A stretch of 36,872 nucleotides of DNA from a virus: positions 1 through 36,872 of the IMG/VR virus record IMGVR_UViG_3300044825_000150, one strand, 5' to 3'. Positions 18,761 to 24,152 of the stretch are shown in pieces. A program made the position numbers and the translations under genes. The notes beneath the pieces were generated by a model, which was not told the origin of the DNA, searched no databases, and saw nothing but the letters and a program-made list of their open reading frames with translations. Position 1 is the first letter of the stretch, and each line of letters begins with the position of its first letter.

Positions 18761-20512
18761 ATGTCAGCCGTTTCGGTCAATCCTCCTTTCCCGATCTTCA
18801 CTGATACGGATGGTCAGCCTCTTGAGAACGGCTACATCTGGATCGGTACGGTCAACCTCGATCCGCAGGGCAATCCGATCACGGTTTACTGGGACTCTGC
18901 GCTGACCCAGGTTGCAGGCCAGCCGATTCGCACGATCAACGGCTACCCTGCACGCAACGGATCGCCTGCCAGGATCTATGCGAATAGCGACTACAGCATC
19001 CGGGTGCAGAATAAGAACGGATCGACTGTTTACAGTGCCAGCGCCTCCACTGATTTCATGAGTGCGGTAGATGTCTCGTTCCAGCCTGCTGGAGCAGGAG
19101 CCACCGCCCGCACAGTCCAGAGCAAGCTGCGCGACACCGTGTCGGTGAAGGACTTCGGCGCCGTGGGCGATGGGGTGACCGATGACACTGCGGCGATTAC
19201 CGCCGCGCTGGCTGCGGCGGATGATGTTTTCGTCCCGCCCGGTACTTACCTCATCTCCTCGACTATCAGCATTGCTCAATTTAAAGTCTTTCGCGGCGTT
19301 GGCTACAAGTCACGACTTTCTGCAAATTCTATCTCCGGGCCAGTCATCAGCATTACATCCGGTACAGGCCCAACTGAGGTATCGGGATTTAGAATTACTG
19401 GAACTGCGACCTCTGGAGTTTCCGTAAATAACGCGCAAACCATAGTAGTAGATAACATTAGTCTGTGGGGCCTCACCGCTACAAATGGGTTCGTGTTCGT
19501 TTCCACTTGGGGGAGCGCGTTTTCTAATTTGTGGACGAACGGTTCAACGCTGACCAATGCTGGATTCATCTGTGGGCAGGACTTCAACGCGAACGACTGT
19601 CGGAACTGGTATACCGGAAGCAGTTTCTGTACCTACAGCTTGCTCATCGACGGAACGTACAACGGCGGTTCTGGCGTGTCGCACGGATCGTCGTGGACTA
19701 TGGTTTGTCTGCAAGATGGTCAGTACGGAATTTACATTGGGTCGTATCAAGGCGCGTCTTTTAATGGCGTCTACATGGAAAACGTGGTGCACCCACTGCG
19801 ACTCGGTGTGGCGTCTACAAAGCTGGCGCGGGGCATCGCTTTCAATGGCGGGGATTTTGGCGGCCCGTATAACACTCACCCGAACTACGCTTCCAGAGAA
19901 GCTGTTATCTGGCTGGATTACGCTATTGGCTGCTCTATTGATGGTGTCGATCTTAGTGGCGCGTACAACTGCGGAAATGCTGCGCCTATTACGTTCAGCG
20001 GTGGCGGTGGGTCTGGCGCGTTCGCTATCGCTCGTGTGACCGCCGCCGGCGTCGTTCAATCAGTTGAGGTCGTCTGCGGCGGCACTGGCTACACCAGCGA
20101 TCCGACCGCAGCAGTCGGAGGCGCAGGGTCTAGCGCCAGCCTGACCGTCACGCGATCGGGTACGTCTGTGTCCACGATTGCGGTGGCGGCGGGTGGATCT
20201 GGATATGTCCCGGTCGTTTGTCCGGTGGCAGTGACTTACAACAAAGCATTTAAATGCTCGATCAACAGCGTCATGTTTAATAGTTCGTTTGGAGACACAA
20301 GCCCGCTTTACCCCTGGGTTGTTCGGCGTTCTGGCGCAACCCCTGGCGCGGGCGTGATGTTGCTCAACGACGCTTCTTGGCTTAACAGCGCGAACGGCAA
20401 CGCGGCCACCCTAATGAAAACGCGATCAAACAATTACACGCATGCGCTGATCGAATACGACAACACTGGTGCTCTCCAATCCTACGTCTACACACCGCCA
20501 CAGTACCCATGA
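18761..20512 (+). CDS. Tailspike 2: paralogous head-binding domain with different beta-helix
   Basis: A 583-aa protein. Residues 1-100 match the head-binding domain of tailspike 1 (NPPFPIFTDTDGQPLENGYI, GNPITVYWDSAL, ANSDYSIRVQNKNG), and residues 127-143 repeat the VSVKDFGAVGDGVTDDT signature. After this the sequences diverge completely: a long beta-helix to about residue 400, then a Gly-rich segment 'SFSGGGGSGAFAIARVTAAG' with 'GTGYTSDPTAAVG' and 'GGSGYVPVVCP' repeats, and a short end. It is a second receptor-binding or depolymerase spike that would compete for or share the gp10 hexamer sites. An AAAGG site precedes the ATG. Confidence 0.92.
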   Translation: MSAVSVNPPFPIFTDTDGQPLENGYIWIGTVNLDPQGNPITVYWDSALTQVAGQPIRTINGYPARNGSPARIYANSDYSIRVQNKNGSTVYSASASTDFMSAVDVSFQPAGAGATARTVQSKLRDTVSVKDFGAVGDGVTDDTAAITAALAAADDVFVPPGTYLISSTISIAQFKVFRGVGYKSRLSANSISGPVISITSGTGPTEVSGFRITGTATSGVSVNNAQTIVVDNISLWGLTATNGFVFVSTWGSAFSNLWTNGSTLTNAGFICGQDFNANDCRNWYTGSSFCTYSLLIDGTYNGGSGVSHGSSWTMVCLQDGQYGIYIGSYQGASFNGVYMENVVHPLRLGVASTKLARGIAFNGGDFGGPYNTHPNYASREAVIWLDYAIGCSIDGVDLSGAYNCGNAAPITFSGGGGSGAFAIARVTAAGVVQSVEVVCGGTGYTSDPTAAVGGAGSSASLTVTRSGTSVSTIAVAAGGSGYVPVVCPVAVTYNKAFKCSINSVMFNSSFGDTSPLYPWVVRRSGATPGAGVMLLNDASWLNSANGNAATLMKTRSNNYTHALIEYDNTGALQSYVYTPPQYP

Positions 20513-22093: not shown

Positions 22094-23688
22094 GCAGTCC
22101 AACTCCTGTTGATCACTCGGCAAAACTTACCGTCTTGCTTGTAAGTAATCTTGCGTGGCGGATTGCCACTGTTCATCACTTTGGCAATCTGATCCAATCC
22201 GTCAAGGTTCGCCACCTCTGGCCCGATCATGCCAAACGCATCGTGTGCCATCTTAGCAAGCAATTGCACTGACTTCTGCCCTGCATAGCCATCGTGCATG
22301 ATCGGCAGGTACTCGGTTACTGGCGGGTCACTCAAGGCTGCGTAATAGGTGACTGCCAGCATTTCTTTGCCGCTGGCCTTGCTGATGTGCTTGCGCCAGT
22401 TCCAACTGGTCACATCAAGGTCTGATCCGTCTAGGCCCATGATGTCGTTGTTGTGGAGCTTGAGTTTCTTGCGTTCAGGCTCAGGAAACGCATGACCGCA
22501 GGCAGGGCACTCGCGCACTGACAGATGGCAAAGTTCGTCGCAGTTGTCGCAGACCTTGACTGGCACCTCGCCATTGCCATCTCCTGCCTTCTTGGGCGGC
22601 TGCACTGCCGTAATCGGGCCATGCGCTGCAACAACACCGGCGAAGTCCAGAACCAAGCAGTCCGTCTTGCCTTCTGCAATTCGCATGCCTCGACCGGCCA
22701 TCTGGACGTACAGGCCAGGCGATAGCGTCGGACGCAGCATGGCAATCAGGTCTATGCCAGGGTAATCAAATCCAGTCGTCAGCACATTAGCGTTGGTCAG
22801 GGCACGAATCTTGCCAGCCTTGAACTCAGACAAGATGCGCTCTCGCTCCTTCTTTGGCGTCTCTCCTGTCACGCATGCCGCTGGAATGCCGTGGATGGTG
22901 TTCAGGATGAAAGCCACGTTCTCGGCGTGTTTGACGCCTGCGCAGAAAAACAGCCATGAACGCCTTGATTCTCCCAGGCGCACCACCTCATCGACAACGG
23001 CTAGGTTATTCTTGTCGGTATCAACTGCCGCCTGCAACTCTGACTCAATGAACTCGCCACCTCGCTTGCGCACGCCACTGGTATCAAGACGCAAGCCAGT
23101 CACTTTACTGCGCAGCGTGGCGAGATAGCCTTTGAATACCAGTTCCTCAATGCTGACAGGCTCAAGCAAGGCATCAAAGATGGCTGGTTTGTCAGTGATC
23201 AGGCCGTGACCGAGCCTGAAAGGTGTAGCAGTTAAACCTACAACACGCAGAGCAGGATTGATGGTCTTGAGGTCTGCAATCAGTTTGCGGTATCCGCCTT
23301 CATCCTTGTGCGACACGGCATGAGCCTCATCAATGATGATGAGGTCTGCATGGCCTAGTTCGCTGGCCTTATTGCGAACCGACTGGATGCCTGCGAAGGT
23401 GATTGGCTCGCCAAGTTGCTTGATGCCGACCGAGGCGCTGTAGATGCCAAGAGGCGCATCCGGCCAATGGTGCAGCATCTTTTCGGCGTTCTGTTCAATC
23501 AACTCCTTCTGATGGGTAAGCATCAGGATGCGTGTCTCAGGCCAGGTTTGCAGTGCATCCTTGCACAAGGCGGCGATGATGTGGCTTTTGCCTGAGCCTG
23601 TTGGCAAGACGAGGCAAGGGTTGCCTGCATTGTTGGCGATCCAGTCGTACAACTGGTCAATGGAGCGTTGCTGATAATCTCTGAGCAT
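22090..23688 (-). CDS. SF2 DEAD/DEAH-box helicase with C-terminal zinc ribbon
   Basis: A 532-aa ATP-dependent helicase. Walker A is LPTGSGKS (28-35), Walker B DEAH (120-123), motif III TAT (153-155), motif V 'NVLTTGFDYPGID' near 301-313, and motif VI QMAGRGMR (329-336), a complete SF2 core of the RAD25/type I restriction-like kind. A zinc ribbon follows with C380-x2-C383 and C394-x2-C397, then a roughly 130-residue C-terminal domain. Paired phage SF2 helicase and VRR-NUC genes are common and may act in replication, branch migration or DNA repair. The start is preceded by a folded non-coding segment rather than a clear ribosome site, which may control its translation. Confidence 0.93.
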   Translation of the reverse strand: MLRDYQQRSIDQLYDWIANNAGNPCLVLPTGSGKSHIIAALCKDALQTWPETRILMLTHQKELIEQNAEKMLHHWPDAPLGIYSASVGIKQLGEPITFAGIQSVRNKASELGHADLIIIDEAHAVSHKDEGGYRKLIADLKTINPALRVVGLTATPFRLGHGLITDKPAIFDALLEPVSIEELVFKGYLATLRSKVTGLRLDTSGVRKRGGEFIESELQAAVDTDKNNLAVVDEVVRLGESRRSWLFFCAGVKHAENVAFILNTIHGIPAACVTGETPKKERERILSEFKAGKIRALTNANVLTTGFDYPGIDLIAMLRPTLSPGLYVQMAGRGMRIAEGKTDCLVLDFAGVVAAHGPITAVQPPKKAGDGNGEVPVKVCDNCDELCHLSVRECPACGHAFPEPERKKLKLHNNDIMGLDGSDLDVTSWNWRKHISKASGKEMLAVTYYAALSDPPVTEYLPIMHDGYAGQKSVQLLAKMAHDAFGMIGPEVANLDGLDQIAKVMNSGNPPRKITYKQDGKFCRVINRSWTA

Positions 23689-23691
23689 AGT

Positions 23692-23806
23692 CTTTGTCTG
23701 GTGGGCCTGGGTTTAACGTCCCCAGGCTCGACGGTCAGATCAGGACAAAGGAGACGCAGCCCCTCTGACTGCCTCCGTTAGCGCACGGTGGGCTTGCGGG
23801 CCAAGC
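23692..23806 (-). other. Densely structured segment ahead of the helicase (candidate leader RNA or cis-element)
   Basis: This 115-nt stretch holds nested inverted repeats (plus-strand coordinates): 23692-23698 CTTTGTC with 23744-23750 GACAAAG, enclosing the perfect 7-bp hairpin GCCTGGG (23705-23711) / CCCAGGC (23721-23727); GTCAGA (23734-23739) with TCTGAC (23764-23769); CCGT (23775) with ACGG (23788); GCTTG (23792-23796) with CAAGC (23802-23806). No T-run follows the main hairpin, so it is not an intrinsic terminator. The outermost pairing lies 3 nt from the helicase start codon and could limit ribosome access. A 22-codon frame (23808 to 23740) begins with a TGATG overlap on the upstream gene and could be a leader peptide. 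Function is inference. Confidence 0.5.
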
Positions 23807-23807
23807 A

Positions 23808-24152
23808 TCAAAACCATGACGCTGCAATGTCCCGCCGTGCCGTTGATTTTTTTGGTTCTGGCGGCACAAAAGGACGATATTTTTCGCGCTCTTTGCGCCT
23901 TGCCTCTCGGCGTTGCGCATTGCGTTGTTCCCTAGTTTGCGTCGCAGGGCGAGGCGCGTCAACAGATCCAATGCCCCAGAGTTTTGCAGGCGTTGCACCT
24001 GTGTACTTGTAATCTGCGATGCAGACGATGCCCTCGGCCTTCATGCGAGTCAGCGCGACCATGAGCGTTGAGCGTGCAACACGCAACTCCCAGCCAAGTT
24101 CGTCTGTTGTGCGTGTTTTCTTCTTGAGCAGGCGCAGGATGCGTTCGTTCAC
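23808..24152 (-). CDS. Small winged-helix/HTH DNA-binding protein
   Basis: A 114-aa protein starting at GTG, overlapping the upstream stop as GTGA. Residues 1-60 have a helix-turn-helix layout (NERILRLLKKKTRTTDELGWE, then a second helix VARSTLMVALTRMKAEG and a short wing IVCIADYKYTG), as in MarR/ArsR-like winged helices used by small phage regulators. Residues 70-100 are very Arg/Glu-rich (REQRNAQRREARRKEREKY), likely an extended nucleic-acid-binding helix. A regulator of the early genes is plausible. The role is inferred from fold pattern only. Confidence 0.7.
   Translation of the reverse strand: MNERILRLLKKKTRTTDELGWELRVARSTLMVALTRMKAEGIVCIADYKYTGATPAKLWGIGSVDAPRPATQTREQRNAQRREARRKEREKYRPFVPPEPKKSTARRDIAASWF

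Follow-up and report, generated by a model that had tools for sequence, protein, structure and literature searches.

The window analysed here, the whole 36,872-nucleotide stretch of virus record IMGVR_UViG_3300044825_000150, almost certainly encodes a conserved structured RNA of ~90 nt on the minus strand at positions 23793-23705. The predicted element consists of three consecutive hairpins in the order P1-A-P2-CG-P3 and precedes an SF2 helicase gene (Table 1). We assign it with high confidence to a previously undescribed structured RNA family, and hold moderate confidence in the function that we infer for it. The element is very likely absent from Rfam. At gathering cut-offs none of the 4227 models of Rfam 15 matched the window or the 12 member loci, and relaxed E-values gave chance-level matches only; the segment, for which an initial annotation had proposed such a scan, had no convincing match. 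The Rfam covariance models of known self-cleaving ribozymes and riboswitches had no match either, and nothing relevant was found in the literature as a described counterpart.

Table 1. The predicted RNA element and the surrounding features of the window
Feature	Position	Strand	Basis
Upstream gene: 114-aa small protein, probably helix-turn-helix (HTH), C-terminus RRDIAASWF	23808..24152	-	homologues found
22-codon frame, proposed leader peptide, not conserved	23740..23808	-	frames compared in eight relatives
Predicted P1 hairpin: GCC-CA-CCGU-[GCGCUA]-ACGG-A-GGC	23771..23793	-	RNAalifold consensus, 8 group-A members
Predicted P2 hairpin: GUCAGA/UCUGAC, G-U wobble, 2-nt GA bulge, inner stem GGGC/GUCC	23734..23769	-	covariation, groups A-D
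Predicted P3 hairpin: GCCUGGG-[GACGUUAAA]-CCCAGGC, loop consensus RCGYNA	23705..23727	-	stem covariation
A/C-rich stretch without Shine-Dalgarno (SD) sequence, between P3 and helicase AUG	23689..23704	-	anti-SD energy -2.0
Downstream gene: SF2 (DEAD/ResIII) phage helicase	22090..23688	-	Pfam ResIII/Helicase_C, PHROG 16 DNA helicase

The initial annotation had proposed a candidate structured leader RNA from inverted repeats in the segment 23692-23806. These repeats lie on the minus strand where it placed them: GCCTGGG/CCCAGGC (23705-23711 with 23721-23727), GTCAGA/TCTGAC (23764-23769 with 23734-23739), CCGT/ACGG (23785-23788 with 23775-23778), and CTTTGTC (23692-23698), which pairs with 23744-23750 and ends, as described, 3 nt from the helicase start (ATG at 23688). 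As a single sequence, the 115 nt have no excess fold stability (MFE z -0.18; 85 of 200 dinucleotide shuffles are at least as stable). Inverted-repeat arms of at least 6 nt number three against 1.55 expected (p 0.20), and those of at least 7 nt two against 0.39 (p 0.04), so that the repeat count alone is near chance, only marginally above it. We judge the segment to be beyond chance because of its conservation and covariation in relatives.

Searches of viral contigs with the helicase and the upstream protein yielded L001 and L002, close relatives in which the gene junction is the same. Among the other helicase homologues the same upstream motif was present in only L008, L018 and L019, and pattern scans added L091, L095, L126 and L146. 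These members constitute the clade of the window, hereafter group A. Its consensus is P1 GCC-CA-CCGU-[loop]-ACGG-A-GGC, a linker A, P2 GUCRGAG-stem-loop-stem-UGA-UCYGAY, CG, a short linker, and P3 with an RCGYNA loop. In P1, which is followed by the single linker A (23770), CCGU/ACGG is invariant throughout the group, and the one compensatory change turns the outer C-G pair into U-A in L001 and L126. In P2, the GA bulge (23741-23740) is conserved, the inner 4-bp stem GGGC/GUCC is variable, and the apical loop includes UCUCC. P2 and P3 are separated by CG (23733-23732) and a linker of 3-4 nt. The P3 stem covaries (T-A to G-C, G-C to T-A, G-C to C-G) around an unchanged loop.

Applied to group A, RNAalifold recovers P1, P2 and P3 unprompted, with compensatory change in five pairs, one of them in P1. 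In group A alone, 97.9% of alignment cells are paired and 5 of the 18 pairs show two-sided changes, with a covariation score of 0.306 against at most 0.067 for slid-partner controls. The combined alignment of 15 sequences has 97.3% of cells paired, two-sided changes in 11 of the 18 pairs (P2 and P3) and a score of 0.589 against at most 0.128 for the controls; it is hand-made, P3 having been placed manually around its loop to fit the structure. The search pattern already contained the invariant letters of the P2 outer stem. Both points bias the covariation evidence. G-U pairs are used repeatedly in P2 and P3, and the element therefore fits RNA better than DNA. Covariation, the test proposed in the initial annotation, thus supports a structured leader RNA. 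We also looked for close relatives that keep the gene pair and have lost the repeats: L001 and L002, the contigs that keep the HTH-helicase junction, both retain the element. Where helicase homologues lack it, another sequence lies upstream and the SD is normal.

A wider scan used the P2 letters only, with both middle positions free, and found 35 places against about 26 chance matches estimated for this pattern. Three further groups are distinguished: nine contigs of integrase-carrying phages (group B), three contigs of a DNA-polymerase phage (group C) and two contigs (group D). In groups B-D the two free pattern positions (N) are always complementary, although this was not required. The inner P2 stem (groups B and C) and the P3 hairpin with the RCGYNA loop (groups B-D) were likewise outside the pattern. 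Trained solely on group A, the covariance model R2 gives 40-46 bits for group B, 29-35 for group C and 22 for group D, against 11-18 bits for control places that matched the pattern and fall in no group. Groups B and C, clearly above these matched controls, are treated as members of the family; group D, the weakest and marginal at 22 bits, is a probable member. Covariation in P2 extends across groups A-D and comprises an outer pair (A-U, G-C or U-A) and inner-stem pairs. The P1 hairpins that can be drawn in groups B and D are no more stable than shuffles, and those in group C only slightly more stable; hence we do not claim P1 for groups B-D. Directly after P3, group C (L163 1850-1870, L161) has TTTTAT, unlike the other groups, and its P3 looks like a weak intrinsic terminator.

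The element was found in metagenomic phage contigs only, group A included. Neither the INPHARED phages nor the PLSDB plasmids contained a true member in BLAST searches with the element. A scan of 84,980 species genomes with the group-A pattern gave 29 matches, all of them chance by inspection; a model search of 300 Burkholderiales genomes gave chance matches only, and family-pattern scans of about 1,150 genomes of Gammaproteobacteria, Planctomycetota and Alphaproteobacteria gave two chance matches. The element was not found in the about 1,450 bacterial genomes sampled. Since the INPHARED, PLSDB and bacterial-genome searches gave no true member, the element looks phage-specific and rare. A match in RcXuper was rejected as chance. 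Xanthomonas phage f20-Xaj (KU595432, a Pradovirus) has a 22-nt exact match to the P3 of group C (CCGACTGGCCCACGTTACGGGC) at L174 3000-3022, intergenic before ORF_19; in this non-coding gap it is preceded by a small hairpin and CG. Without P2 it was rejected as a true member, and it is possibly a minimal relative or a chance match.

The element is maintained independently of its gene context. Between the window and L126 it is 97% identical, while the sequence downstream is 28-39% identical and the downstream genes are unrelated. The corresponding values are 93% and about 40% for L002 and L091, and 90% and about 40-53% for L018 and L146, a pair that also differs in upstream genes. The element persists while either neighbour gene is swapped and is thus an autonomous unit. 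The downstream genes of group A are of three unrelated types, encoding an SF2 helicase, a Prim-Pol/DUF3987 primase-helicase and an SNF2-type helicase. Positions 1957-2083 of L126 and 23808-23688 of the window are near-identical through the last base of P3 and then unrelated; this sharp mosaic boundary suggests that recombination may use the RNA element as a shared linker. Each phage record searched has one strong copy. The second-best model match in the window (20111-20181, plus strand, 17.9 bits) was rejected as a second copy, as it lies within coding sequence and scores like the controls.

Downstream of the element, the helicase start codons appear to be right, since the N-terminus MLRDYQ is common to homologues. 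On the upstream side, the best Pfam match of the small protein is PF05584, a plasmid regulatory protein, just under the cut-off. A C-terminal tail RRD[IPV]AA[SA]WF is shared by otherwise diverged small HTH-like phage proteins (window 23808-24152 on the minus strand, L008, L081-L086, L091, L095 and L126). It stands at the very end of the protein, is also present where the RNA element is absent, and is reminiscent of an SSB-type or clamp-binding tail peptide.

In line with the initial annotation, which saw no clear ribosome site there, no SD is visible before the helicase ATG: the preceding 20 nt give a duplex energy with the anti-SD of -2.0 kcal/mol, whereas many genes of the same genome reach about -6 to -12. 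The start codons of group A lie 9-22 nt past P3, and an SD is absent in 9/9 (+0.4 to -2.7 kcal/mol; eight distinct regions, as the L001 start region is identical to that of the window). Helicase homologues without the element (74, with 51 distinct start regions) have an SD in 51/51, at -3.8 to -12.2 kcal/mol with a median of -6.7. The element-less SNF2 homologue L202 has one at -6.9, and the element-less Prim-Pol/DUF3987 homologues at -7.1 (L203) and -5.8 (L129). The association with SD loss is striking but comprises few events, because the nine starts represent three independent downstream-gene lineages. The RNA is retained in groups B and C, whose downstream genes carry an SD (22 and about 55 nt beyond P3), and the group D copy is in a 3' UTR, facing a convergent gene. 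SD replacement is therefore not a universal role of the family, unless group D is a false member and groups B and C have changed roles.

The repeat set of the initial annotation held only in part: the unit 23793-23705 is conserved, and the ATG-adjacent repeat 23692-23698 lies outside the conserved structure, to which its pairing is an alternative. In the window, GACAAAG (23698-23692) of the pre-AUG stretch could pair with CUUUGUC (23750-23744) of P2 (-9.9 kcal/mol, p 0.006), as is also possible in L001. In L091 and L126, GAGACG before the AUG can pair with CGUCUC of the P2 loop, and pairing between the pre-AUG stretch and P2 is absent in L002, L008, L018, L095 and L146. The ATG-adjacent pairing was rejected as part of the conserved structure, being strong in the window, L126 and L091 only. 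A switch by alternative pairing is a lead only, because other group-A members are without it. Kissing-loop and tRNA-like readings, judged by eye, were dropped because the complementary letters are not kept.

We consider the chances about even that this undescribed family of phage structured RNAs replaces the SD in group A and controls translation of replication genes. Taken by itself, control of translation initiation by the element, the likeliest mechanism in group A, is plausible, though tentative. The three-hairpin RNA would act in cis within early or replication transcripts. In group A it stands directly upstream of the replication gene, instead of an SD, and once folded would offer an unstructured, A/C-rich start region for SD-independent landing of the 30S subunit. 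Alternatively, alternative pairing with P2 could hide the start region until a factor binds. Either behaviour might require a protein, from the host or the phage, that binds the invariant P2 bulge and P3 loop. The leader of T4 gene 32 is an example of the autogenous or translational mRNA operators of phage replication genes. Like them, the element is a structured RNA that immediately precedes a replication gene and likely exerts its control at the level of the ribosome. Unlike them, it stays unchanged when an unrelated gene takes the downstream position, so that simple autoregulation by the downstream product is unlikely.

Several other readings concern the start region or the hairpins themselves. 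In phage T4 gene 25, the ribosome-binding site is split: a hairpin separates the AUG from an SD-like sequence further upstream. A hairpin has the same location here, and GGAGG in the 3' strand of P1 could serve as the SD, brought to the AUG by folding out of P2 and P3 and masked by P1 pairing or by UCUCC of the P2 loop. GGAGG (-9.5 kcal/mol) is present in P1 of most group-A members and absent from the SD-bearing groups B and C, and UCUCC is kept in every group-A member. However, there are two large hairpins here, and the residual spacing is longer than in gene 25, 12 to about 25 nt in addition to the two helices, where an effective spacing near 5-12 nt would be expected. Moreover, some members lose the SD-like sequence yet keep the pairing: P1 of L001 and L126 reads GGAAG (-3.5 kcal/mol) but stays paired through a compensatory change, which argues for conservation of P1 pairing and not of SD strength. 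We regard a split site as quite improbable, and a self-cleaving or nuclease-processed RNA, which would trim the mRNA near the AUG and make an SD unnecessary in the resulting leaderless or short-leader message, as unlikely but slightly less so. Processing would account for the SD-less starts, and the varied contexts and the invariant unpaired nucleotides (linker A, GA bulge, CG, loop RCGYNA) are compatible with it, but no Rfam ribozyme class matches and the spacing between P3 and the AUG is variable (9 to 22 nt). The hairpins might also act as DNA, in an origin, a single-strand initiation site or a recombination junction, as the element stands at the boundary of swapped replication modules and all group-A downstream genes are of replication type. 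Many of the pairs that covary are of the G-U type, which suits DNA poorly, the orientation always follows transcription of the upstream gene, and no recognisable replication gene directly follows the element in groups B-D; a DNA-level role is very unlikely. Least probable is a leader-peptide attenuator. The initial annotation had suggested that translation of a leader peptide could open or close the structure, and the 22-codon frame with its TGATG overlap on the upstream stop codon does exist in the window and is kept in L126. The idea fails because the frame is not conserved: in L091 an 8-codon frame ends inside P1, L146 starts in a different frame, and in L002 and L018 the only start codon is TTG, an ATG being absent. 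No terminator-like T run follows P3 in groups A and B, TTTT being present in group C only. Variation tracks the RNA and not codons, as the AHR-A-x-TEAVR stretch is almost invariant at third codon positions and one residue varies freely (L/I/S) where its codon falls in the P1 hairpin loop.

A larger, still minor, share of probability goes to a factor-independent antitermination or anti-pausing RNA, in which the nascent hairpins would bind RNA polymerase and sustain elongation across the later section of the early operon; the lack of an adjacent SD would then be incidental. A defining trait of HK022 put is antitermination by way of the zinc-binding domain of RNA polymerase beta'. This put RNA is about 70 nt long, folds into a pair of stem-loops and targets the host polymerase in cis (PMC9378689). 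The element resembles putL and putR as a cis-acting RNA of tailed phages with consecutive stem-loops and an early-operon location (PMC9378689); P1 and P2 are adjacent, one nucleotide apart, and span about 65 nt in the early or replication operon. Its independence of both neighbours and its occurrence before SD-bearing genes and in a 3' UTR also fit this reading. In contrast to put, it has a third hairpin P3 with the RCGYNA loop and is linked to SD-less starts, which antitermination does not predict; its position in the window is several kb into the operon, not promoter-proximal, and it is present in a single strong copy per phage record rather than two. HK022 put was rejected as a homologue, its region L131 being unmatched by the models R1 and R2 or by sequence. 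The activity common to the family may nevertheless differ from translational control and involve, for example, RNA polymerase binding like that of put, with SD loss special to group A, because groups B and C have ordinary SDs and group D is in a 3' UTR.

To our knowledge, structured RNAs that are specific to phages and covary strongly are few. The present element is modular and has been kept through exchange of both neighbour genes. It could conceivably, though improbably, be a phage counterpart of internal ribosome entry, a three-hairpin module placed before unrelated genes that starts or switches SD-less translation. If RNA polymerase is its binding partner instead, the element would join put as a factor-independent antiterminator. 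Whether bacterial translation initiation can use a dedicated folded RNA module is a general question, which the SD loss in group A makes testable.
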